This document shows, piece by piece, positions 11,465 through 20,930 of a stretch of 21,074 bases of DNA. The translations under genes were made by a program, and so were the position numbers. This DNA comes from a virus. Under the pieces are notes generated by a model. It saw nothing but the letters and a program-made list of their open reading frames with translations, ran no database searches and was not told the DNA's origin. Numbering within the stretch: position 1 is the stretch's first letter; each line of letters starts with the position of its first letter. Location: positions 1-21,074 of IMG/VR virus record IMGVR_UViG_3300009155_000325. One strand, given 5' to 3'.

Positions 11465-11728
11465 ATGAATTGGTCAGACGTAATGAAAGCGGTGGTTCCC
11501 ATCGTCGTCGCTTCTTTAGCATGGCTCCTTGGTGAAGTGTCGTCGTTCAACACCCGCTTGACCAAGATTGAAGGTTCGATGCCTGCGCTGATTACATCTC
11601 AAGGCGTGCCTACGGACAGCCCGTTGTCGGCTGAAGCGCGGCACAAGCTAAAGGAAGAAATCTATAAAGAGATCAACACCTTGCACGTCAAGGTAACCCT
11701 ACTTGAAGAACGCCAGAAAGGTAAATGA
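11465..11728 (+). CDS. Small N-terminally anchored coiled-coil protein, lysis region
   Basis: Encodes 87 residues from the ATG at 11465, one base after the previous stop; a longer reading from 11417 would overlap the previous gene. Residues ~8-23 (KAVVPIVVASLAWLLGE) form a membrane helix. After a short loop with LTKIEGSMPALITSQGVPTD comes a helix of Lys/Glu heptad character (ARHKLKEEIYKEINTLHVKV). I recall similar small phage proteins (possibly DUF7365) from lysis regions, unverified. It could serve as a holin partner or inner-membrane spanin-like subunit, but the latter would need a periplasmic partner that I do not find. The last codons hold AAAGG for the holin gene. Confidence 0.62.
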   Translation: MNWSDVMKAVVPIVVASLAWLLGEVSSFNTRLTKIEGSMPALITSQGVPTDSPLSAEARHKLKEEIYKEINTLHVKVTLLEERQKGK

Positions 11729-12135
11729 TGATACTTGATTCAATTCTCGGGATCGGCAACAAGCTGATTGACAAGTTAATCCCTGACCCAGAAGCCAAAG
11801 CCAAAGCGCAAATGGAGTTGGCTACGCTTGCCCAGAACGGCGAACTTGCCAAGATGGCGAACGACACCAAGATGTTTGAGGTGGAGCAACAAAACACCAC
11901 AGACCGTTGGACAGCAGACATGGGGTCAGACTCTTGGCTATCCAAAAACATTCGCCCAATGGCGCTTATAGCTATCTTCGTGGGTTTCTTTACGTTTACG
12001 ATGATGTCGGCCTTTGGCTACAACGCCCAAGAAACTTACGTTCAACTTCTGGGGCAGTGGGGGCAGATCATTTTCCTAGCGTATTTTGGTGGACGCACTG
12101 TTGAAAAACTGGCCGACATGAGGAGCAAGAAATGA
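11725..12135 (+). CDS. Holin, GTA 3-TM type
   Basis: Encodes 136 residues. The N-terminal amphipathic segment (ILDSILGIGNKLIDKLIPDP) is followed by a charged helix and the signature stretch DRWTADMGSDSWLSKNIRPM, then membrane helices at ~77-98 (ALIAIFVGFFTFTMMSAFG) and ~106-122 (LLGQWGQIIFLAYFGG). This matches the holin family first described in gene transfer agents (PF11351). Holins form inner-membrane lesions that release or activate the endolysin. It is directly upstream of the endolysin with an ATGA overlap. Either of two adjacent ATGs (11725 or 11728) could be the start. Residue positions were counted by eye. Confidence 0.85.
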   Translation: MMILDSILGIGNKLIDKLIPDPEAKAKAQMELATLAQNGELAKMANDTKMFEVEQQNTTDRWTADMGSDSWLSKNIRPMALIAIFVGFFTFTMMSAFGYNAQETYVQLLGQWGQIIFLAYFGGRTVEKLADMRSKK

Positions 12136-12554
12136 CGCCACACTTCACTCTTGAAGAGCTTACCCATACTGACCACCGGACTCTGGACAACACGCCAAAT
12201 GACGAAGAACGAGCAAATCTGGTACGACTGGCTGAGTTTCTGGAGTTGGTCAAGGTGGCGCTTGGAAATAAACCCATCATGGTCAACTCTGCGTTTCGCT
12301 CTAAAGCGGTCAACGACGCCGTTGGTTCCAAAGACACTTCTCAGCACCGCATAGGTTGCGCGGCTGACATTAGGGTGCCAGGAATGACCCCCGATCAAGT
12401 AGTACGGGCTTTGATGGCCGCGCAGCTACCCTACGACCAGATCATCCGCGAATTTGATTCTTGGACGCATATCAGTGTCCCTAGCGCCGTTGGATTACTT
12501 CCCCGCAGGCAGGCTCTTATCATTGACCGGCAAGGAACCCGTCAGTTTGCGTAA
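12132..12554 (+). CDS. Endolysin, M15-family zinc peptidase
   Basis: Encodes 140 residues of the Peptidase_M15_3 type, D-Ala-D-Ala carboxypeptidase-like enzymes that cut peptidoglycan cross-links or stems. The opening HFTLEELTHT, the central VNSAFRSKAVN, the motif S-Q-H72-R-I-G-C-A-A-D79 and the late W-T-H113-I-S supply the three zinc ligands (H72, D79, H113); E107 upstream of H113 is a candidate catalytic residue. There is no signal peptide, so export depends on the holin just upstream. The start overlaps the holin stop (ATGA). The last 60 nt overlap the opposite-strand gene ending at 12495, yet the C-terminal PRRQALIIDRQGTR looks family-typical, so the overlap is probably real. Confidence 0.9.
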   Translation: MTPHFTLEELTHTDHRTLDNTPNDEERANLVRLAEFLELVKVALGNKPIMVNSAFRSKAVNDAVGSKDTSQHRIGCAADIRVPGMTPDQVVRALMAAQLPYDQIIREFDSWTHISVPSAVGLLPRRQALIIDRQGTRQFA

Positions 12555-12692
12555 CTCGACCATAGCGTCTTTAAAGTCGCCCTGAAGCTGCATGATGTAG
12601 TCCTGCTGCTCCTGCATTTTTAAATACGCTTCCACGGCGAAATCGGCCAAGTTCTTGTTTGACCAAGCGGCAAAGTTAGGTAGATCGTTCAT
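12495..12692 (-). CDS. Small hypothetical protein, last of the leftward small-gene chain
   Basis: Encodes 65 residues: MNDLPNFAAWSNKNLADFAV, then a Gln/Met-rich helix (KMQEQQDYIMQLQGDF), a charged helix and a Pro/Lys tail. It looks like a short coiled-coil protein; no function is recognised. The ATG overlaps the upstream stop as ATGA and there is no separate Shine-Dalgarno, so expression is probably by coupling. Its 3' 60 nt are antisense to the end of the endolysin gene. Confidence 0.6.
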   Translation of the reverse strand: MNDLPNFAAWSNKNLADFAVEAYLKMQEQQDYIMQLQGDFKDAMVELRKLTGSLPVNDKSLPAGK

Positions 12693-12904
12693 GGTTGTTT
12701 AGGCCCGTAGGGTCGTTTGTCGCTAAAGTCAAAGCGTTGCTCCGTGGTTTTAAATGTGTAGGTATGGTCATCAGCAATAAATTCTAAGCGGCGCAAACCA
12801 TGCTCAAAGCCAGCGCCCCAATTAAGGACTGAGTAGATAGCCCCCGTTAACTTTTCGGTGTAAACACCGCCAATGTGGTGCAGTTGTAGTTCTTTAGGTG
12901 TCAT
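12689..12904 (-). CDS. Small hypothetical protein
   Basis: Encodes 71 residues with mixed beta/alpha character and several aromatics (LHHIGGVYTEKLTGAIYSVL, LRRLEFIADDHTYTFK). No motif, membrane helix or cysteine pair is visible and no family is recognised. Its ATG follows immediately after the TAA of the upstream gene (TTTAAATG) and its stop overlaps the next start, so it is one link in the leftward polycistronic chain. Confidence 0.55.
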   Translation of the reverse strand: MTPKELQLHHIGGVYTEKLTGAIYSVLNWGAGFEHGLRRLEFIADDHTYTFKTTEQRFDFSDKRPYGPKQP

Positions 12905-13111
12905 TTAAACCCCCCTGCTTTTGTAACGTTGATTATTGTCAGCCCCTGGCCTCACAGGTTCCATCTGTTCAGGCTTGTAAGTTGGGCGCTCCCAAAGGTT
13001 CATGGCCGGTGAAGGCGTGGGTGACGGTATAGTGCGCGTGGGGTCAACCTCATTAAGCAGCTTTCGCAGTTCCCGCGCCTTGCGCTCCTCTGCCCAGTTT
13101 CTTGCTCTCAT
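12905..13111 (-). CDS. Small hypothetical basic/Pro-rich protein
   Basis: Encodes 68 residues from the ATG at 13111. I prefer this to an ATG at 13123 because it has GGGGG five bases upstream and overlaps the previous stop as ATGA, exactly like the junction at 13302. An Arg/Glu helix (MRARNWAEERKARELRKLL) is followed by a Pro/Ser/Thr linker (TIPSPTPSPAMN) and a basic tail, suggesting a largely disordered protein. No function can be assigned. Confidence 0.55.
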   Translation of the reverse strand: MRARNWAEERKARELRKLLNEVDPTRTIPSPTPSPAMNLWERPTYKPEQMEPVRPGADNNQRYKSRGV

Positions 13112-13302
13112 GTGTTCCCCCATAATGGTGGTGTGCAGGTGTGTATGTCGTTGGTGCGCTTACCGCACCTCGGGCAAAAATTGTCAGGCTCCTGCTCTGG
13201 CTGTGCCAAGGCTTCTTTAAGTGCATTCACAAGTAGTATGGTTGTTTCCATGTCCACGGGAACAATCGCACCAGCTTGAAGGTATTTCAATGCTTCTTTC
13301 AT
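13108..13302 (-). CDS. Small protein with EALAQPEQEP module and Cys-ribbon
   Basis: Encodes 64 residues from the ATG at 13302, preceded by GAGGGG (13308-13313) and overlapping the previous stop (ATGA); an upstream ATG at 13323 has no comparable support. The N-terminal helix ends in KEALAQPEQEP, the same peptide encoded in the upstream gene. It is followed by CPRCGKRTNDIHTC, a likely small zinc-binding knuckle (Cys-x2-Cys...His-x-Cys). The end LWGNT carries the Shine-Dalgarno of the next gene. Zinc-ribbon proteins of this size may bind nucleic acid or protein; the role is unknown. Confidence 0.6.
   Translation of the reverse strand: MKEALKYLQAGAIVPVDMETTILLVNALKEALAQPEQEPDNFCPRCGKRTNDIHTCTPPLWGNT
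13187..13218. repeat. 32-nt direct repeat, copy 1
   Basis: This 32-nt block is identical, by reading, to 13507-13538. On the minus strand it encodes KEALAQPEQEP in the gene at 13108-13302. Perfect nucleotide identity, including third codon positions, in two neighbouring genes points to recent duplication, gene conversion or exchange. Confidence 0.85.
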
Positions 13303-13742
13303 GTGTTCCCCTCTTTTAGCCATTGCTGAATGCGTTGAAACGCCACCAAGTAATTACCCGCTTCAGCCAGCCTTGCAGCTTCTGTAAATTGCTCATCCGT
13401 CAGTCCTACCCATGTACGCTTTGGTGTTAGTTTTTCACCGTAATATCTGCCTCTTAGGGTGCATGGTTTGGAGCATTTGTAATAATCGCCGCAGCAAACT
13501 TCCACCGGCTCCTGCTCTGGCTGTGCCAAGGCTTCTTTGATGGCGGTGATGGCTTTGTTTTGTTGGCCTCTCCATTCGCCGCAGCCAAGTATGTACTTGC
13601 TATCCAGCGCCTCAAGCGCCAGCTTCAATGCTTCGTCTTTAGTCATTTCTGCGCCTTTTAAATTTGTCTGCGCGTAGACCTGAACATCATCGTCGTCTAA
13701 TCTGTCCAGCGCGATTTTGCGTTTGCTGTCAAAGCCTGTCAT
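13299..13742 (-). CDS. Hypothetical protein, apparent fusion of two small phage modules
   Basis: Encodes 147 residues. The ATG at 13742 has GAGGAGG upstream and an ATGA overlap with the previous small gene. Residues 1-32 (MTGFDSKRKIALDRLDDDDV) resemble the start of a separate small phage protein. M33 (13646) begins a second module, MTKDEALKLALEALDSKY, with its own AAAAGG upstream, continuing to AITAIKEALAQPEQEP (~69-84), a cysteine-rich patch (VCCGDYYKCSKPC), and a helical end (LTDEQFTEAARLAEAGNYL). This suggests in-frame fusion, with possible internal initiation at 13646. The end KEGNT contains the ribosome site of the next gene. Function is unknown. Confidence 0.6.
   Translation of the reverse strand: MTGFDSKRKIALDRLDDDDVQVYAQTNLKGAEMTKDEALKLALEALDSKYILGCGEWRGQQNKAITAIKEALAQPEQEPVEVCCGDYYKCSKPCTLRGRYYGEKLTPKRTWVGLTDEQFTEAARLAEAGNYLVAFQRIQQWLKEGNT
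13507..13538. repeat. 32-nt direct repeat, copy 2
   Basis: Identical to 13187-13218, 320 bp away, and encoding the same peptide KEALAQPEQEP in the neighbouring gene at 13299-13742. Confidence 0.85.
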
Positions 13743-13834
13743 AACAGGGCCTCCTCATAGTTGTCAGGGTTAAATTTAGGTGGTGCCGTGTTGACGGGCA
13801 CCGGCATGGGGAAGGGCGGGAAGGGCCAGCTCAT
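13739..13834 (-). CDS. 31-residue Pro-rich micro-protein
   Basis: ATG at 13834, stop TGA ending at 13739. The product starts MSWPFPPFPMPVPVNTAPPK and ends NPDNYEEALL. Both ends lock into the chain: its ATG overlaps the TGA of the upstream membrane-protein gene (ATGA), and its own TGA overlaps the ATG at 13742 (ATGA). The codons for EEA (GAGGAGGCC) form the Shine-Dalgarno of the next gene. Without it there would be an 88-nt gap in an otherwise gapless series. The protein is probably disordered and its role is unknown. Evidence of translation is indirect. Confidence 0.55.
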   Translation of the reverse strand: MSWPFPPFPMPVPVNTAPPKFNPDNYEEALL

Positions 13835-13968
13835 GTCTTAGCCCACCAGTACCCGAGGCACATCATGCCAAAGCTAAAGATGCCAATGAGGGCGAGCATC
13901 GTCCACACGCCGGTGACAAACATCATCCACAGCGGGGGGTTGTCAATGTTTTCTTCTTTGTTGGTCAT
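13831..13968 (-). CDS. 45-residue single-pass membrane protein
   Basis: Start chosen at ATG 13968, preceded by the AAGAAG-containing repeat; a longer reading from 14034 would overlap the upstream gene by 50 nt. A short acidic N-terminus (MTNKEENIDNPPLW) leads into one long hydrophobic helix (about residues 14-41, MMFVTGVWTMLALIGIFSFG, continuing MMCLGYWWAKT). It could be an inner-membrane peptide affecting the host or superinfection; no family is recognised. Its stop overlaps the start of the 31-residue gene (ATGA). Confidence 0.55.
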   Translation of the reverse strand: MTNKEENIDNPPLWMMFVTGVWTMLALIGIFSFGMMCLGYWWAKT

Positions 13969-13986
13969 GGTTTGTTTTCTTCTTTC
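13965..13986 (-). repeat. Junction repeat, copy A (non-coding spacer)
   Basis: This 22-nt block matches 14338-14359 at 20 of 22 positions. Here it lies mostly between the stop at 13985 and the ATG at 13968. In a third frame it still reads LKEENKP-stop, with that stop overlapping the ATG as ATGA, as though it were the remnant end of a lost gene. Confidence 0.6.
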
Positions 13987-14341
13987 AGTTGTAAAATAAT
14001 TTTGTTTTCTTTTGTAAATGATACCCAGCATCAATTTCCGTTGGCGACCACCAGCGCCCGTTTACAAATCGGCGGCTAAGAATATATGCTGACATTTCTG
14101 CGTCTGTCCACCTTTTTGTAACTGGCGGTTGATACGGGTCTGGCAAATATTCAAACACTTTTCCTTCATTCCATTCGTTTGCTAACTTTTTAGCTTCGGT
14201 TTCATTAGTAAAAACCCGACCGTTACCCAACGTCAAACAATTAATGTTGTGTTTGTTCATAATGCCCCACCATCCATTGGGGCCAATGGCTTCGGCCTTG
14301 TAAGGGCCAAAAGCAAAATATTTACCTGGTCTTGCATTCAC
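13985..14341 (-). CDS. Hypothetical protein, GTG start
   Basis: Encodes 118 residues. The start is GTG (14341), overlapping the TGA of the upstream gene as GTGA, with GAAGG in the upstream gene's last codons as ribosome site. The protein has a Gly/aromatic-rich N-terminal half (YFAFGPYKAEAIGPNGWWGI; LTLGNGRVFTNETEAKKLA), then a Pro-rich linker (LPDPYQPPVTKRW), and a C-terminal half with RRFVNGRWWSPTEID. It may be two small domains. No motif identifies a function. Confidence 0.58.
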   Translation of the reverse strand: MNARPGKYFAFGPYKAEAIGPNGWWGIMNKHNINCLTLGNGRVFTNETEAKKLANEWNEGKVFEYLPDPYQPPVTKRWTDAEMSAYILSRRFVNGRWWSPTEIDAGYHLQKKTKLFYN

Positions 14342-14359
14342 GGTTTGTTTCCTTCTTTC
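14338..14359 (-). repeat. Junction repeat, copy B (coding)
   Basis: Partner of 13965-13986. Here it forms the last codons (LKEGNKP-stop) of the gene at 14338-14526, holds its neighbour's Shine-Dalgarno (GAAGG), and ends in the GTGA start-stop overlap. Confidence 0.6.
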
Positions 14360-14526
14360 AAAATTTCCAACCGTTCCCGATTGGTTCTGAGGGTGCAGTA
14401 GCGTTGGTGGATACGCTCTAGCATGGATACGCGCCTATGCTTTGCGCGTTCTTCTTGCAACAAAACCAACAAGTCAGTCTCGCTGTAATTAGGCAGTTCA
14501 CTCTGAAATTTGCGCCAAGTCAGCAA
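14338..14526 (-). CDS. Small hypothetical helical protein, TTG start
   Basis: Encodes 62 residues. I place the start at TTG 14526 because AAGGAG (14535-14540) lies 8 nt upstream, and no ATG gives a better fit. The sequence is helical and charged: WRKFQSELPNYSETDLLVLL, then EERAKHRRVSMLERIHQRYC, then LRTNRERLEILKEGNKP. I recall similar short proteins in other environmental phage genomes but no function. Stop codon overlaps the GTG of the next gene (GTGA). Confidence 0.6.
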   Translation of the reverse strand: MLTWRKFQSELPNYSETDLLVLLQEERAKHRRVSMLERIHQRYCTLRTNRERLEILKEGNKP

Positions 14527-14538
14527 TTTTGTTTCTCC

Positions 14539-15015
14539 TTAAATGTGCTTGGCAAAATTGCCATGATATTTGCATCTTGCTTCTTCAATAGCAAACTGAG
14601 CCAGTTCAAAATCATCAAAAAATTGTTTAAACACAGTTTGTCTTTTTACATTTAATCGAGCACACCACAAACCATTTGAAACAAGAGAAACACCTTTAAT
14701 CCCAGAAGAACAATTTTTGTTTTGACGACGATTGTGTTGATTTTGTGATCTAGTTGCGGCTCGCAAATTTTCTATTTTGTTGTTGCTTGGGTTGCCATCA
14801 ATGTGGTCAACAGTTTCAGGTTCCCAACCAAAGTGCATAACAAAAATAATTCTGTGCCATAACTGTCTTTTACCATCAACGCGAACATGAAAATATTTAT
14901 CTTTACGTTGGTTCCCAGCAATTTCACCAATTAATGCGCCGTGTGTTTTTTGTTTTCTATAAAGAAAACCATCTCGATATTCAAATAATTCATCACACCT
15001 TTTTTTCGTAAGCAT
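14539..15015 (-). CDS. HNH endonuclease with AP2-like C-terminal domain
   Basis: Encodes 158 residues. The core is LWHRIIFVMHFGWEPETVDH with IDGNPSNNKIENLR right after: the first His, the V-D-H-I-D-G-N block and N-K-I-x-N-L-R define the HNH ββα-metal nuclease. The C-terminal region (NCSSGIKGVSLVSNGLWCAR) matches the AP2-type DNA-binding module often attached to free-standing phage HNH homing endonucleases. It nicks or cuts DNA and typically spreads itself among related phages. It looks more AT-rich than neighbours and sits within the small-gene chain. GGAGG lies upstream of the ATG, and its first 23 nt overlap the end of the 53-residue gene. Confidence 0.88.
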   Translation of the reverse strand: MLTKKRCDELFEYRDGFLYRKQKTHGALIGEIAGNQRKDKYFHVRVDGKRQLWHRIIFVMHFGWEPETVDHIDGNPSNNKIENLRAATRSQNQHNRRQNKNCSSGIKGVSLVSNGLWCARLNVKRQTVFKQFFDDFELAQFAIEEARCKYHGNFAKHI

Positions 15016-15154
15016 TTATCTTTGCCTCCAGTTCAGCAATCCTTGCGGTTACTTTGTTATAGGCCCGAGATGCGCTGTTTTGCGTCCGAGTGCGAATAGC
15101 CAGTTCCGCTTGCGCGGTTCTTAGCTTGGCTTTGAGTTGTGTAAGTCGATTCAT
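14993..15154 (-). CDS. 53-residue coiled-coil micro-protein
   Basis: ATG at 15154, stop TGA ending at 14993. The product begins MNRLTQLKAKLRTAQAELAI and ends IAELEAKINAYEKKV, a Lys/Arg/Ala/Glu-rich helix with heptad character and no cysteines. Its ATG overlaps the stop of the upstream gene as ATGA, the same linkage used throughout this chain. Its late codons (CTGGAGGCA) carry the Shine-Dalgarno of the HNH gene. Without it there would be a 135-nt gap. No function is recognised. Confidence 0.6.
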   Translation of the reverse strand: MNRLTQLKAKLRTAQAELAIRTRTQNSASRAYNKVTARIAELEAKINAYEKKV

Positions 15155-15423
15155 AAAAAATAATTACTATCTGGCATTCGATCTAATTTGCTCTTTCTTT
15201 GTTGATGCGCTGCAAACCAAATGGTAAGTTGCGCTGTATGCTCAATCGTTTCCCAATACGTTTTTGCTTCTTTAATCAAACCATCCGTTGGAACATCGCG
15301 CCAAATCGCAGAACGATTCCTAAAAGACTCAGCGGCTTCCTTGGCGTCAGCCTCAAGAATGCGAACCAAGTCATCGCTTACTAGGCTCTTGCACGTTTTT
15401 AGATCAAAGGACTTTGGGGTCAT
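15151..15423 (-). CDS. Hypothetical protein downstream of primase-helicase
   Basis: Encodes 90 residues, mostly helical: FDLKTCKSLVSDDLVRILEA, KEAAESFRNRSAIW, then HTAQLTIWFAAHQQRKSKLD. There are no membrane helices or metal motifs. The 27-nt gap to the primase stop contains an A-rich stretch and TGTGATAAACTTT (minus-strand reading) that could act as a weak promoter, and no good Shine-Dalgarno is seen before the ATG. The stop overlaps the next ATG (ATGA). Function unknown. Confidence 0.58.
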   Translation of the reverse strand: MTPKSFDLKTCKSLVSDDLVRILEADAKEAAESFRNRSAIWRDVPTDGLIKEAKTYWETIEHTAQLTIWFAAHQQRKSKLDRMPDSNYFL

Positions 15424-15450
15424 GTTCTAAAGTTTATCACAGTTTTTTTG

Positions 15451-17472
15451 TTAATTGGAATTTTTCTTTAGCATCATTCCTGATGCTTGGCCTGCGTCAA
15501 TCACGATCCAGCCGTTCTCATACACTTGAATCAGCCCTGCCTCGGTCAATGGCTTGATGTACTTGCCATTGTTTTTGTCAGCTGGAATTTGCGCTCTCAA
15601 ACTGTCTTTGGTGTATTCCTTGTTTTTCAGTCCATTTACCAATGCCCAGTCAAAGAACGCGCTGCGGGTAAGGTACGGTGCGCCGCCTCGATCTTCGGCA
15701 CCAGTGGCAAACCATGCACGCTCAAACGATGCAAAACCAAGCGAGTCGCCCTTGCTCTTACCCTCTGGTGCTTCGCCTTTAATTAGCACTGCGCTGGTGA
15801 CTTGTTCTCCATCCTCATCAAGCCAACCAGGTATTGCCACCGACTCAAGTTCAACGTACACGGTTTGCGACATCTCAGCATCTTTGCTTTTGCGCTGGAT
15901 GATCTCCATTGGCTTGCCAGGCTTGCTTGGGACAATGCTGATCTCGATGTCCAATGCGCCACGCCATGCGCTAGAGCCTCGGGCACGGTGCTGGGCCTCA
16001 TCTGACACGCCGGTATGGTGAACCAAAATGACGGTGCAGCCAAACTCCTGCATTAGTGCCGCGCAGGCATCTAGCATGGTCTTGGCGTCCTGTGCGCTGT
16101 TCTCATCACCGGCCATAAAACGGTGCAAGGTGTCTACCGTGATCACGCTTGGCTTGATCTTTAATGTCCTGACCGCCTCCAAAACCTTCAAGTAGCCCTC
16201 TGGTGTATTAAGGTCAAGTCCTGACTTGCTTACCCACATATTGAGGCTGGTGACGCTGTTGTGGTGCTTCCACGCCGCTATCCTGCTTCGCAAACCGTGG
16301 TGTCCTTCACCGGCCAAATACACCATGTTGCCGGGTCTGACCTTGTGACCAAACCATGTTGGCTTACCACTAGCAATGTGCAGCATCCAGTCAAGCGTGA
16401 CAAAGGTCTTGCCACCACCGCTAGGGCCATGCACCATCACTAAGGCTTGATCTTGTATCCAATGCTTTACAAGCCACGAGATGGGCGCTGGCTGCTCTGA
16501 AAACCCGTCGGCATGAATAAGGTAGTCTGTGGTCGCTATTGGCTTTAAAAGAAGCGCCAAGTCGTGCCCTTCTTGAACGTAGTCATTAGCGTCCCCTAAG
16601 ACCGGCGGCATTGTCATACGGACACCATACTTTGCACTGGCTTGCTCTGCGTAGCGTTGTCCTACGCCACTGGCGTCATTGTCGGCAACGATGCAAATGT
16701 CAAGCGTGGGGTGTGATTCTTTAAGGATGCCTGTCACAGGCACCAGATTGCTGGCGCTGTAGGCCACGGCGCAGGGTTTGCCGGTCACTTCTGCAATGGT
16801 GGCCGCTGTTGCAAAGCCCTCGGCAATGTAGAGCGTATCGGCGTCATCCATGCTGCCAAGCAGCCAAAACATAGAGCCAGTCTTGCCACCTGGGTGGTAC
16901 TTCTTATCGCCGTCACCGGCAATGTATTGGATGCTGGAGAGTTCCCCGTCTTCGTTGTACAGGGGCACCATCAAACGTCCATCGCCTGTTACCCGTGCGC
17001 CGTGCGGTGCAATCTTTTTCGTAGACAAATAGGGGTGTTCTGGGCTTGCTGCGCTGCCTTCTGACCAGATGATCTCTACTGTCTGCGCCGCTACTTCGCG
17101 GGTCTTGGCCTGCTCTGCGTCGCGCTGGGCCTTGGCCTCTGACAGTCTGCGAGACTGCGCCATTTCTTCGGCTACCGTCAGGCTGCGCCCAATCTCTGCC
17201 TTCCAAGTCAACTCAACACCAGAGCGCCAACATCCAAAACGCCCTGCCGGTACGCCATCATTAAAGGCTATGTACCAGCCAGGCTTGTCGTGCCCTTTTT
17301 CACCCTTGGTGCCTGAATTAAATCGGTGCAATTTACCGTCTAAATGTATGGTGTCTGGTGGCTTGAGACCTGCGCCAAGCATGGCGTCTTTTAGCTGATC
17401 CTCTGGTGCGGTGGGGGCTTGTTGCACTGGCGGCGACCAAGGGCCACCGAAGATACTTGCGAGGTCTGACAT
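15451..17472 (-). CDS. Bifunctional primase-helicase (Toprim + RepA-like AAA ATPase)
   Basis: Encodes 673 residues. An N-terminal region (~60-200, GWYIAFNDGVPAGRFGCWRS) precedes a Toprim domain at ~210-300, with L-Y-I-A-E218-G and the acidic pair V-A-D264-N-D266 for metal binding. A RecA-fold helicase follows at ~325-540: Walker A G349-P-S-G-G-G-K355-T356, Walker B V-I-T-V-D447, and VILVHHTG (His485/His486), as in RepA/AAA_25 hexameric helicases. The C-terminal ~100 residues look winged-helix-like (KEYTKDSLRAQIPADKNNGK). The enzyme would prime and unwind DNA at the phage fork. No N-terminal zinc-ribbon Cys set is seen. It is transcribed opposite to the recombination operon, and AAGG precedes the ATG. 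Confidence 0.87.
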   Translation of the reverse strand: MSDLASIFGGPWSPPVQQAPTAPEDQLKDAMLGAGLKPPDTIHLDGKLHRFNSGTKGEKGHDKPGWYIAFNDGVPAGRFGCWRSGVELTWKAEIGRSLTVAEEMAQSRRLSEAKAQRDAEQAKTREVAAQTVEIIWSEGSAASPEHPYLSTKKIAPHGARVTGDGRLMVPLYNEDGELSSIQYIAGDGDKKYHPGGKTGSMFWLLGSMDDADTLYIAEGFATAATIAEVTGKPCAVAYSASNLVPVTGILKESHPTLDICIVADNDASGVGQRYAEQASAKYGVRMTMPPVLGDANDYVQEGHDLALLLKPIATTDYLIHADGFSEQPAPISWLVKHWIQDQALVMVHGPSGGGKTFVTLDWMLHIASGKPTWFGHKVRPGNMVYLAGEGHHGLRSRIAAWKHHNSVTSLNMWVSKSGLDLNTPEGYLKVLEAVRTLKIKPSVITVDTLHRFMAGDENSAQDAKTMLDACAALMQEFGCTVILVHHTGVSDEAQHRARGSSAWRGALDIEISIVPSKPGKPMEIIQRKSKDAEMSQTVYVELESVAIPGWLDEDGEQVTSAVLIKGEAPEGKSKGDSLGFASFERAWFATGAEDRGGAPYLTRSAFFDWALVNGLKNKEYTKDSLRAQIPADKNNGKYIKPLTEAGLIQVYENGWIVIDAGQASGMMLKKNSN

Positions 17473-17585: not shown

Positions 17586-18251
17586 ATGGCTATTTCGTTA
17601 AAACGCACTAGCGGCCTCAGTGCCAACGGTGTCAAATTGCTTGTCTACGGACAGGCTGGTGCGGGTAAGACAAGTCTGATCAAGACGTTGCCAAGCCCCG
17701 TTGTATTGTCTGCCGAGGGTGGATTATTGTCCATTCAAGACGCTGACCTTCCTTACTTGGAAATTACAAGTATGGATGATTTGCGGGAAGCCTACTCATG
17801 GGTTTTGGAGTCTGATTACAAGAGCGTAGCCCTTGATTCGATTTCTGAGATCGCCGAAGTTTGCCTGAATCATGAAAAGAAGGTCAACAAAGACCCACGC
17901 GCTGCCTATGGCGCTATGCAAGAACAGATGGCTGACATTATTCGGGCATTCCGCGACATTCCAGGTCGCCACGTTCTGATGACCGCCAAACTGGAAAAGA
18001 CCCAAGACGAGATGGGACGGGTTCTGTACAGCCCTTCAATGCCAGGTAACAAAACCGGCCAAGCGCTGCCCTACTTTTTCGACGAGGTGTTAGCACTACG
18101 GGTTGAGAAAGACGCCGAGGGCAACACCCAACGCGCCCTGATGTGCGACTCTGACGGCCTGTGGCTTGCCAAAGACCGCAGCGGCAAGTTGAGCGCATGG
18201 GAAGCCCCTGACTTGGGCGAGATCATTGCCAAGATTGGCGGTGCAGCATGA
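17586..18251 (+). CDS. Sak4-like RecA-fold ATPase, recombinase
   Basis: Encodes 221 residues. Walker A is G22-Q-A-G-A-G-K28-T29 after a beta-strand (VKLLVYG); Walker B is V-A-L-D84-S-I. The compact length, the early P-loop, and the segments YGAMQEQMADIIRAFRD and the DxxGRxxYSPSMPGN-like area match the AAA_24/Sak4 group of phage recombination proteins, RecA-core ATPases that promote single-strand annealing or strand exchange with a phage ssDNA-binding protein. Such a protein (DUF669) and a nuclease are encoded downstream. AAGGAG (17574-17579) is a strong ribosome site 6 nt from the ATG. It is the first gene of the operon; its stop overlaps the next ATG. Confidence 0.83.
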   Translation: MAISLKRTSGLSANGVKLLVYGQAGAGKTSLIKTLPSPVVLSAEGGLLSIQDADLPYLEITSMDDLREAYSWVLESDYKSVALDSISEIAEVCLNHEKKVNKDPRAAYGAMQEQMADIIRAFRDIPGRHVLMTAKLEKTQDEMGRVLYSPSMPGNKTGQALPYFFDEVLALRVEKDAEGNTQRALMCDSDGLWLAKDRSGKLSAWEAPDLGEIIAKIGGAA

Positions 18252-18805: not shown

Positions 18806-19117
18806 ATGAATATTGACAATATTCCTGCAATTACAACGCCGCATCCATTTTGCGGAAAATACGTTATAGCTCGTTGTCATATTGCTGGTGTACACGCCGG
18901 AGAAGTTGTGAGCGCAGATGGCGAGAATGTCATTCTTAAAGACTCTCGACGTTTGTGGTCATGGAAAGCAAAGGACGGAATTGCTCTTTCTGGAGTGGCG
19001 CAAAACGGCCTTAAATCAGATAGCAAAATTGACACAATGAACCCTTTGATTTTTTTAACTGGTGTATGCGAACTTATTGTTTGCTCTGACGCCGCAAAGG
19101 AATCAATTAATGGCTGA
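18806..19117 (+). CDS. Hypothetical phage protein, DUF6948-like
   Basis: Encodes 103 residues from the ATG at 18806, with AAGGA (18796-18800) five bases upstream; a longer in-frame reading from 18749 would overlap the previous gene. The pattern KYVIARCHIAGVHAGEVVSA, LKDSRRLWSWKA, ALSGVAQNGL and a late LTGVCELIVC agrees with my memory of DUF6948, small beta-rich phage proteins of unknown function; not verified. The last 8 nt overlap the start of the glycine-repeat gene. Confidence 0.7.
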   Translation: MNIDNIPAITTPHPFCGKYVIARCHIAGVHAGEVVSADGENVILKDSRRLWSWKAKDGIALSGVAQNGLKSDSKIDTMNPLIFLTGVCELIVCSDAAKESING

Positions 19118-19352
19118 ACAATTTATTGATGGATCAGGCTATGGTGCTGGCGATGGCACTGGCGATGGCTCCGGCTATGGCTATGGCTATGGCGATGGCT
19201 GTGGCGCTGGCGGTGGGTGGGGAATTGGCACTGGCTCTGGTGCTGGCTCTGGCAGTGGCTTTGGAACTGGCTCTGGCTATGGTGCTGGCACTGGTCTTGG
19301 CTATGGTGACGGCAATGGCACTGGCACTAGCGTTGCCGGTGGTTGGAATTAA
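19110..19352 (+). CDS. Glycine-alternating (X-Gly)n repeat protein
   Basis: Encodes 80 residues starting at ATG 19110, with AAAGG about ten bases upstream. After the leader MAEQFID, glycine occupies every even position from 8 to 72, giving 33 consecutive X-Gly pairs; the X residues are mainly Ser, Thr, Tyr, Asp and Ala, with no Lys or Arg. The tail is TSVAGGWN. The DNA shows hexamer-like periodicity (GGC TAT, GGC GAT, GGC ACT). Strict Gly alternation could form a flat beta structure as in silk-like GAGAGS peptides, or stay disordered; no function is known. It sits between the DUF6948-like and DUF669 genes. Adjacent-frame ORFs here are repeat artefacts. Confidence 0.7.
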   Translation: MAEQFIDGSGYGAGDGTGDGSGYGYGYGDGCGAGGGWGIGTGSGAGSGSGFGTGSGYGAGTGLGYGDGNGTGTSVAGGWN

Positions 19353-19378: not shown

Positions 19379-19864
19379 ATGGCTTTTTTAGACGAAGAAT
19401 TTAGCGTTGACACGCTGCCCGTTGGTAATAACAACTTTGAACCCCTGCCCGAGGGCTGGTACAACGCCACTATTACTGGTGCTGAGATCAAGTCCACCAA
19501 AGCAGGCGATGGCAAGTTTATTGCGGTCAAGTACACCATCACTGGCCCCAGCCATCAAGGGCGGGTTGTATTTGGTAACCTCAACATCAAGAACGCAAGC
19601 ACCAAGGCCGAGGAGATCGGACGCCAGCAGCTTGGAGAGATCATGCGAGCCATTGGCTTGGCTAAGGTATCCGACACCGACCAACTGATTGGCGGTAACC
19701 TTGGCATCAAATTGTCGCTGAAGACTGGTGAGTATGCAGGTAACGAGGTTAAGGCATTTCGGGCTTTGGGCGGTCCCCAACCAGGAACTGTAGCGCTGTT
19801 CAAGGCTGTAGCGCCTGCCGCTACACCTGCTAAGGCCGCGCCACCTTGGGCTAAGAGCAAGTAA
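19379..19864 (+). CDS. Single-stranded-DNA-binding protein, DUF669 type
   Basis: Encodes 161 residues of the DUF669 (PF05037) type, an OB-fold-like ssDNA-binding family found in phage recombination operons. Key parts are the N-terminal PLPEGWYNATITGAEIK, KFIAVKYTITGPSHQGRVVF, NIKNASTKAEEIGRQQLGEI and the C-terminal KTGEYAGNEVKAFRAL. The end APPWAKSK is Pro/Ala-rich and basic rather than the acidic tail of bacterial SSB; it may still be the contact point for Sak4 or the nuclease. AGGATTAAATC precedes the ATG. A GC stem-loop follows the stop and separates it from the nuclease gene. Confidence 0.83.
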   Translation: MAFLDEEFSVDTLPVGNNNFEPLPEGWYNATITGAEIKSTKAGDGKFIAVKYTITGPSHQGRVVFGNLNIKNASTKAEEIGRQQLGEIMRAIGLAKVSDTDQLIGGNLGIKLSLKTGEYAGNEVKAFRALGGPQPGTVALFKAVAPAATPAKAAPPWAKSK

Positions 19865-19922: not shown

Positions 19923-20930
19923 ATGCAAATACCTGAACCCGAGATTACCATAACTTCCTTGATTGATCAAGCCCATGAGGCACGGCTAGAAAAGCCTCGT
20001 GCCCACCTTGGTTGCTCAATGCTAGGCCACCACTGTGATCGCTGGCTATGGCTGTCGTTTCGTTGGGCGGTGCAGGAAAAGTTTAAGGGCCGCATTCTGC
20101 GCTTGTTTCGGCGTGGTCAGAATGAAGAGGCCACTATCATCAGCGACCTGCGCGCCATTAAAATGACCGTATCAGGCACCCAACGCCGAGTGGACTTTGG
20201 TAGCCACGTTAGCGGCAGCTTGGACGGCATTGGCAAGGGGGTGCCTGGTGCGCCAAAGTCCGAACACGTTCTAGAATTCAAAACCCACAGTCTCAAGTCA
20301 TTCAATGACTTGGAGAAAAATGGCGTGGCAAAGAGTAAGCCCATGCACTTCACACAATGCCAAGTGTATATGCACGGCACCGACCTGAAACGCGCTTTGT
20401 ATGTCGCCGTCTGCAAAGACGATGACCGTGTATATACAGAGCGCCTAGAGTATAACCGCGCCCATGCAGAGAAAGCCATTGCCAGAGGCCAGCGCCTTAC
20501 CCTGACCGACCGCCTGCCACCACCCATCAGCACCGACCCTACTTGGTTTGAGTGCAAGATGTGCGCGGCGCATGACTTCTGCCACGGCAGCAAGACCACT
20601 AAAGAAGTTAACTGCCGCACCTGCGCCCATGCAACGCCATTGTCCGATTCAACATGGCACTGCGCCAAGTGGGATGCCATCATACCAATTGAGGCGCAGC
20701 ATACCGGCTGCGAGAGCCATGTTATTCGCCCTGATCTGGTGCCGTGGAAGCGGCTGGAAAGCCCTAGCGATTGGGTGGCGGTCTATGAGATTAACGGGCA
20801 GGGCTTGGCTAATGGTGAGCCAGGCGAGGGTGTGTATAGCAGCAAGGAATTGTTGGCTAATGCTGCGGCTTGCGCTGACCCTACGGTTAATCGGCTGCGG
20901 GGTGAGTTTGATGCTAGGGTGGTGGCGTAA
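19923..20930 (+). CDS. Cas4/RecB-like PD-(D/E)XK nuclease with Fe-S-type cysteines
   Basis: Encodes 335 residues. Motifs run in the expected order: N-terminal HLGCSMLGHHCDRW with C38; G-S-L-D101-G; the catalytic E118-F-K120 in HVLEFKTHS; and the Gln motif HFTQCQVYM (Q145). C38 together with C211-x2-C214-x5-C220 matches the four-cysteine set that holds a 4Fe-4S cluster in Cas4 and AddB nucleases. An extra Cys-rich patch (C231-x2-C234...C247) follows. It would process DNA ends for the Sak4/ssDNA-binding annealing pathway. AGGAG (19910-19914) lies 8 nt before the ATG. No CRISPR array or other cas gene is visible, so this is a phage recombination exonuclease, not an adaptation protein. Confidence 0.82.
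   Translation: MQIPEPEITITSLIDQAHEARLEKPRAHLGCSMLGHHCDRWLWLSFRWAVQEKFKGRILRLFRRGQNEEATIISDLRAIKMTVSGTQRRVDFGSHVSGSLDGIGKGVPGAPKSEHVLEFKTHSLKSFNDLEKNGVAKSKPMHFTQCQVYMHGTDLKRALYVAVCKDDDRVYTERLEYNRAHAEKAIARGQRLTLTDRLPPPISTDPTWFECKMCAAHDFCHGSKTTKEVNCRTCAHATPLSDSTWHCAKWDAIIPIEAQHTGCESHVIRPDLVPWKRLESPSDWVAVYEINGQGLANGEPGEGVYSSKELLANAAACADPTVNRLRGEFDARVVA

Follow-up and report, generated by a model that had tools for sequence, protein, structure and literature searches.

A protein-coding joint at the ends of small genes in uncultured bacterial viruses and apparent gene swaps at its position

In many uncultured bacterial viruses, small genes end in a common joint, and sequence comparison shows genes swapped exactly there between related viruses. 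The stretch analyzed here, IMG/VR record IMGVR_UViG_3300009155_000325 (21,074 bases, the whole of which is called the window), is a record of an uncultured virus that carries an array of small genes on its minus strand. The joints in this array belong to a widespread coding adapter with the consensus GAAGCCAAACTCAAGGAGAAGAACACATGA (EAKLKEKNT-stop), a single conserved DNA stretch that provides the upstream C-terminus, the Shine-Dalgarno sequence of the next gene and the ATGA stop/start overlap. We consider it probable that these joints serve as standard boundary sequences in an array of phage gene cassettes, where each is both a translation joint and a point of exchange.

Results

The sequence GGGGAACACATGA occurs exactly twice in the window, at 13108-13120 and 13299-13311, both on the minus strand, with no copy on the plus strand. 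As the original prediction had stated, both copies are exact and each reads ...GNT-stop overlapping the next ATG. Joint 1 (TGGCTAAAAGAGGGGAACACATGA, 13299..13322, minus strand) encodes WLKEGNT-stop and holds the Shine-Dalgarno sequence, and the ATG at 13302-13300, which opens MKEALKYLQ, overlaps the TGA at 13301-13299. Joint 2 (13108..13131, minus strand), the end of CCACCATTATGGGGGAACACATGA, encodes (PP)LWGNT-stop, and its TGA overlaps the ATG at 13111-13109 (MRARNWAEE). The GGGGAACACATGA pair by itself is weak evidence, because 9 of 100 window shuffles contained at least two matches when two mismatches were allowed.

The full adapter spans about 30-40 nt (GCCATTGAAGCCAAACTCAAGGAGAAGAACACATGA) and codes for AIEAKLKEKNT-stop; AAAGAGGGGAACACATGA and ATGGGGGAACACATGA are the window variants. 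The junction that had been taken as the cassette motif is a member of the adapter family, but its xGNT ending is a minor form and KEKNT is the main one. The tail DNA AAGGAGAAGAACACATGA consists of the Shine-Dalgarno sequence, 8 nt and then the ATG overlapping the stop. Enrichment was analyzed in 201 related loci that had been selected for their protein or linker and without regard to the joint, and the table was restricted to starts with a Shine-Dalgarno sequence and an open reading frame (ORF) of at least 40 amino acids. AACAC was followed by ATGA in 200 cases and by ATG[C/G/T] in two, and at 189 of the 200 AACAC-ATGA sites an upstream ORF of 40 or more codons came to its end. The proposed enrichment over ordinary ATGA overlaps was borne out: AACAC was found in 189 of 1116 Shine-Dalgarno-bearing ATGA overlaps, with the runner-up spacer at 38, versus 13 of 3300 other starts. 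The enrichment, clustering, codon and breakpoint counts include each set of sequences with identical context once. The pattern GARAACACATGA was discarded since it misses KEKNT, and no count rests on it.

The 18-mer AAGGAGAAGAACACATGA, sought without reference to protein, was present in at least 120 viral contigs. We analyzed 118 of 120 stretches (114 new loci and L086, L087, L090 and L207), in which 127 of 141 occurrences were true overlaps in the KEKNT frame; the codon-permuted control AAGGAGAACAAGACATGA matched 15 contigs in all and gave 5 true overlaps. In 35 whole records, hand-picked from those longer than 25 kb, AACACATGA was counted 59 times and the reversed control 12 times. A 26-nt extension that is present in 10 of 137 sampled joints still matched at least 120 contigs, which suggests that the collection holds well over a thousand copies of the joint.

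The genes that meet at the sampled joints were clustered. The 135 downstream genes fell into 87 clusters, and the 128 upstream genes, with the tail trimmed, into 35, of which the largest holds 92. Among 154 tails of the form [LIVM][KR][EDGA]KN, 143 had a start close by that opens an ORF of 35 or more codons. The start lay at +2 nt in 113 cases and at +1 nt in 22, the latter spacing resulting in an 8-nt overlap and in endings such as KEKNHG, KEKNYD and KEKNGG. With starts at these two positions, the final residues of the upstream protein are specified by the start of whichever gene comes in, while the tail is fixed up to KEKN. Further recurrent tails were seen in the related loci, namely RARGNT (20 of 205 AACAC joints), GIKENT, and GQA- or GEA-stop before ATGA, and each of these endings may be a separate adapter class.

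For codon use, coupled and uncoupled tails were set side by side. Synonymous sites were conserved over about 9-13 terminal codons, including sites outside the Shine-Dalgarno sequence. Compared with gene bodies, the tail had GCC at -8 in 88% versus 22%, CTC at -6 in 51% versus 9%, and AAC at -2 in 97% versus 63%. On these counts, the codon conservation of the tail is greater than the peptide or the Shine-Dalgarno sequence would need. The linker encoding ALAQPEQEP showed synonymous conservation as well (GAG 94-97% versus 43%; GCC 68% versus 15%). In L405, L096 and L031, one protein body was seen with three C-terminal tails (KLKEKNT, AHGITGE and AHGIKGLV), and the DNA of the three diverges directly after the GAAGCC codons.

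Conserved gene order in all relatives had been named as an outcome that would speak against the cassette idea. Order varied, and the swaps were bounded by joints. L014, L023, L042 and L141 hold near-identical genes in differing order, with partners changing at the joint. One gene, 221 codons long and 99.7% identical over 676 nt, is common to L110 and L115, where it has joints on both sides and different neighbour genes; otherwise the two loci share just 64 nt at 90.6%. Swaps bounded by the joint were seen at 27 joints in 23 locus pairs; dissimilarity of the pairs, here and in the breakpoint counts below, was judged on the fetched loci, not on whole contigs.

Of 351 joints, 41 carried a breakpoint in alignments of at least 95% identity, against 24 of 733 ordinary ATGA overlaps (odds ratio 3.9, Fisher p = 1.8e-7); the loci are not independent. 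The controls were other Shine-Dalgarno-bearing ATGA overlaps on the same strand within 2.5 kb. Each of two sets showed the excess, the first with 31/189 versus 20/349 and the second, sampled by joint sequence, with 10/162 versus 4/384; an earlier run had given 28 of 187 joints and 17 of 325 overlaps. Over random positions, the excess of breaks was about 3-6 fold at the joint, 2-3 fold at other overlaps, 5-8 fold at the linker and 2-5 fold at WVGLT sites, so that breaks within genes at the linker and WVGLT modules matter too. The claim that exchange occurs at junctions thus holds for the joint-bounded swaps but is too narrow, because exchange is also seen within genes, at the ALAQPEQEP linker and the WVGLTDE module. 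Alignments of a shared upstream gene mostly stopped within a few bases of the ATG (ATGA), and those of a shared downstream gene mostly started about 18 nt ahead of the ATG, as expected if exchange falls within the joint, although the similarity of the joint copies to one another accounts for part of this pattern. Cassettes with both ends at joints were found in 2 of 798 alignments, a number too small for a statistic.

The window gene at 13299..13742 (minus strand) is, as far as alignment to relatives indicates, a mosaic with cuts at a start codon, at the internal ALAQPEQEP linker and at joint 1. It is composed of an MTGFDSKRK extension, an MTKDEAL N-module, the ALAQPEQEP linker, a variable middle, a WVGLTDE C-module and the KEGNT tail, and Pfam and PHROG searches gave no match. 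The N-module with its linker (13502..13646, minus strand) is 89.7% identical to L004 from the internal ATG through the linker end. The C-module, WVGLTDE ... QQWLKEGNT (13299..13412, minus strand), is 84.2% identical to L005 as far as the final base of joint 1, and a different gene comes next in L005. With L170, two stretches align: one begins at the start of the gene that follows joint 2 (12961-13113, 83.8%), and the other is the MTGFDSKRK opening of the earlier gene (13629-13742, 82.5%). L170 has a single fused gene in place of the window's two. The strongest repeat, absent from the original prediction, is a 32-nt exact one, AAAGAAGCCTTGGCACAGCCAGAGCAGGAGCC, which codes for KEALAQPEQEP and has one copy in each of two adjacent genes, at 13507..13538 inside 13299..13742 and at 13187..13218 inside the next gene, 13108..13302 (both on the minus strand). 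On either side of the array the window aligns with L032, L366 and L119 (81-87% for L032), while window positions ~12404-14389 could not be aligned to them at the sensitivity used, save the linker in L032; their genes within the array differ from those of the window and have LNT or KEKNT joints.

At 13647-13742 (minus strand), an in-frame N-terminal extension, MTGFDSKRKIALDRLDDDDVQVY, stands ahead of MTKDEAL. Acidic DDDxQxY pieces like it were seen in other small genes of L033, L075, L098 and L170, and the extension is apparently a further exchangeable module.

A search with the protein of 13302-13646 returned 310 related stretches, of which the best 80 were used; family loci were fetched partly with the peptide QQWLKEGN, giving a slight bias to such tails. 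The family has the layout MTKDEALKLALEALE..., ALAQPEQEPVAW, a variable middle, (Y)TTPPQR-WVGLTDEE and ...AIEAKLKEKNT-stop, and one N-part was seen with various C-parts and vice versa. No Pfam model was over the cut-off for seven family members, and the two PHROG matches, of which one was weak, are to families of unknown function. Cultured relatives were few: in a collection of 50,697 phage records, 4 matched a family-type protein and none the zinc-ribbon-like gene described below. The array DNA had a single matching record, with 4% of the query covered. As regards the host, two loci lie in Betaproteobacterial/Comamonadaceae contigs of metagenome-assembled genomes, which may be binned phage contigs; the 18-mer AAGGAGAAGAACACATGA was absent from both genomes.

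Two further window sites had been described as a related 22-nt junction, and at all four sites the terminal codons had been said to supply the Shine-Dalgarno sequence while the stop overlaps the next start. This arrangement was found at three of the four. At 14338..14359 (minus strand), ...LKEGNKP-TGA lies over a GTG start at 14341-14339; this is likely a coupled start, though not the recurring adapter. At 13965..13986 (minus strand), an intergenic Shine-Dalgarno sequence precedes the ATG at 13967 without a stop-start overlap, the upstream ORF having already stopped at TGA 13987-13985 (LFYN*). The two sites are equal at 20 of 22 positions by eye, but the reading frame differs at 13965-13986 and the pair is not a recurring joint. 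It was rejected as a second adapter because the core AAACAAACC[A/G]TG occurred in only one other locus of the scanned set (L039, in a different context). A shorter core, AACAAACC[A/G]TGA, was present in L008, L039 and L175, of which L008 reads KEKNKP-stop.

The array is flanked by a holin/endolysin pair at 11725-12554 (PHROG holin and endolysin) and a primase/helicase gene at 15451-17472. Apart from an HNH endonuclease at 14539-15015, none of 10 array ORFs was above the Pfam cut-off, and with the same exception PHROG gave two weak matches only (E 0.047 and 0.078). The small gene at 13108..13302 (minus strand) reads MKEALKYLQ...linker...NFCPRCGKRT...PPLWGNT, with a zinc-ribbon-like part whose matches are weak and below the cut-off. 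Its partner downstream of joint 2 is the small gene MRARNWAEE... (12905..13111, minus strand). The HNH endonuclease (minus strand; PHROG HNH family, E 3e-53) lies within the small-gene array and has an equivalent in the same place in L032 and L366. The alignments of L119 and L098 leave too little room for it, so the gene resembles an insertion that is gained and lost. Elsewhere, 19062-19352 (plus strand) encodes a small protein of nearly all Gly-rich pairs (GDGSGYGYGYGDG...), the DNA of which is periodic at 12 nt.

Discussion

At the level of sequence, the comparison demonstrates the joint and its enrichment, its synonymous conservation in the DNA, the diversity of its neighbours and swaps that break at it. 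A stop/start overlap with the Shine-Dalgarno sequence in the upstream end, as in ATGA-type coupled overlaps, is present at joints 1 and 2 and the GTG joint, at 189 of 200 AACAC-ATGA sites and at 127 of 141 18-mer occurrences, and ribosomes would presumably re-initiate there, coupling the translation of the two genes. Because many boundaries carry the same joint, recombination between two copies could swap a single gene or a run of genes, or replace a neighbour. Every recombinant would keep its start codon correctly spaced from the Shine-Dalgarno sequence and coupled to upstream translation, and similar exchange would take place inside genes at the conserved ALAQPEQEP-coding linker and the WVGLTDE module. 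We infer that homologous or annealing recombination at the joint drives the exchange, as opposed to breaks at random positions that selection then sorts. Ease of swapping may in turn maintain the joint sequence, which would make exchangeability a selected trait.

The original prediction, in which shared C-termini reflected a plug-in junction of a cassette system, was confirmed in part as an observation, and its interpretation was partly supported, better than expected: the swaps at joints and the enrichment of the motif agree with it, and the selected purpose stays an inference.

Several points weigh against regarding the joints as dedicated boundary sequences. Their sharing is in part plain descent of one family's C-terminus, because 92 of the 128 full-tail upstream genes form one linked cluster. 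Gene-boundary mosaicism is general here, since ordinary ATGA overlaps nearby also break (24/733), and the rise in breakpoints at the joint is no more than about 3-4 fold. As the loci are not independent, p-values are optimistic, and the joint's own similarity pulls alignments across it by up to ~18 nt. All sequences are metagenomic contigs, some of which may be chimeric assemblies. At joint 2, L170 has related neighbours yet a different junction sequence. A common recombinase was not found in the 35 related records (Sak4-like 0/35, ERF 6/35, RecT 1/35).

The window has its own recombination module on the plus strand, with a Sak4-like annealing protein (17586-18251), a DUF669/SSB-like protein (19379-19864) and a Cas4-domain exonuclease (19923-20930). 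Exchange mediated by Sak4 was rejected as the general mechanism, as the Sak4 family was found in 0 of the 35 records and the wider AAA_24 model was over the cut-off in none of them. Passages of one study describe phage recombinase-dependent exchange across diverged regions (PMC3945230), which makes exchange via short homology plausible in principle.

The joint could also be a product of ordinary gene-boundary mosaicism, in which illegitimate recombination strikes anywhere, selection keeps the breaks at gene edges, and AAGGAG-N8-ATGA recurs because it is a good coupled start in the hosts. The joint does contain a near-perfect Shine-Dalgarno sequence, nearby ATGA overlaps break as well (24/733 at 95% identity and 67/733 at 90%), and 7 folded joints showed no structure beyond that of shuffles. 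We nevertheless judge this explanation unlikely. The reordered-codon joint is rare (15 contigs versus at least 120), synonymous conservation extends outside the Shine-Dalgarno sequence, AACAC is nearly absent before an ATG without a following A (2 versus 200), and breakpoints at joints are 3-4 times those at local overlaps.

Plain paralogy, in which a family with a conserved C-terminus grew by tandem duplication and the joints were inherited along with it, would account for the single cluster linking 92 of 128 upstream proteins and for the linker and KEAL-type start in both of the window's genes. It seems improbable to us in view of the tail's presence in 34 other upstream clusters, the unrelated appearance of the window's C-modules (WVGLTDE versus zinc-ribbon-like), the three tails on one body, and single cassettes common to otherwise dissimilar loci. 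A function of the tail peptide itself (KEKNT, RARGNT), for example as a docking or degradation signal with DNA conservation being secondary, is very improbable. The peptide is found on many proteins that fall into different clusters, but conservation lies at the codons, beyond the residues, and the final residues depend on how the next gene begins (KEKNHG, KEKNYD, KEKNGG).

We prefer, as stated above, to regard the joints as boundary sequences, and elements of this kind are known. Short boundary sequences in lambdoid phages (Susskind and Botstein 1978; Clark et al. 2001, HK620) are presented in sections of PMC3029335 as proposed sites of homologous exchange that build mosaics. As portrayed there, they resemble the present joint as short conserved DNA at gene boundaries; the joint differs in being protein-coding, with a Shine-Dalgarno sequence and stop-start overlap, and in that one sequence recurs at several boundaries per genome and in at least 120 contigs. 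Here too, conserved short DNA separates non-homologous modules, and breakpoints are commoner at the joint than at local controls (41/351 versus 24/733, loci not independent). The present system fits boundary-sequence mosaicism and is distinct as a protein-coding, predicted translation-coupling form with several copies per array. Since the joint is recurrent, with countable breakpoints and synonymous-site conservation, the matter in dispute becomes testable.

In mycobacteriophage Island3, gp67 and gp68 have 18 C-terminal residues and ~50 bp in common, which part of the same article reads as a trace of recombination and terms the first in mycobacteriophages (PMC3029335). That is a single case, unlike the joint here, which is recurrent and at which breakpoints were counted. 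The PeSL cassettes of T4-type phages (Arbiol 2010, Comeau 2014, as cited in PMC4503421) are similar in being a repeated short element between small genes where modules are shuffled. They consist of a promoter and a stem-loop; the element here is a translation joint. A PeSL was rejected for the window joints, where no terminator- or promoter-like site was present, and no stable fold was obtained in 7 joints. Cluster K mycobacteriophages carry SAS, a 13-bp repeat with AGGAG right before the starts of genes of different families, according to portions of PMC3203893. The sequence of the joint differs from the SAS given there, and the stop overlap and swap breakpoints are features of the joints here; GGGATAGGAGCCC had no match in the window with up to 2 mismatches, and this assignment was rejected. 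An integron attC site was likewise rejected, as the joints fold no better than shuffles and 12400-15500 gave no Rfam match; an integrase was not searched for. In the open-licence literature, the motif peptides AQPEQEP, KLKEKNT, LAQPEQE and WVGLTDEE were not found, nor was a paper combining coupling, overlap and mosaicism. The kind of element is thus already known from phage boundary sequences and T4 PeSLs, and a protein-coding, translation-coupling version across many viruses appears to be new.

A broader possibility, which we put forward tentatively, is that the joint is a shared assembly standard. Very many uncultured phages, otherwise dissimilar in sequence, would keep one coding adapter where their accessory genes end, so that genes from a pool could plug in anywhere with translation intact; the incoming start would write the last residues of its neighbour, and the adapter would be the conserved unit. 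The finding bears on why the same C-terminal peptides recur among many small phage genes, a likeness by which homology searches and gene naming can be misled.

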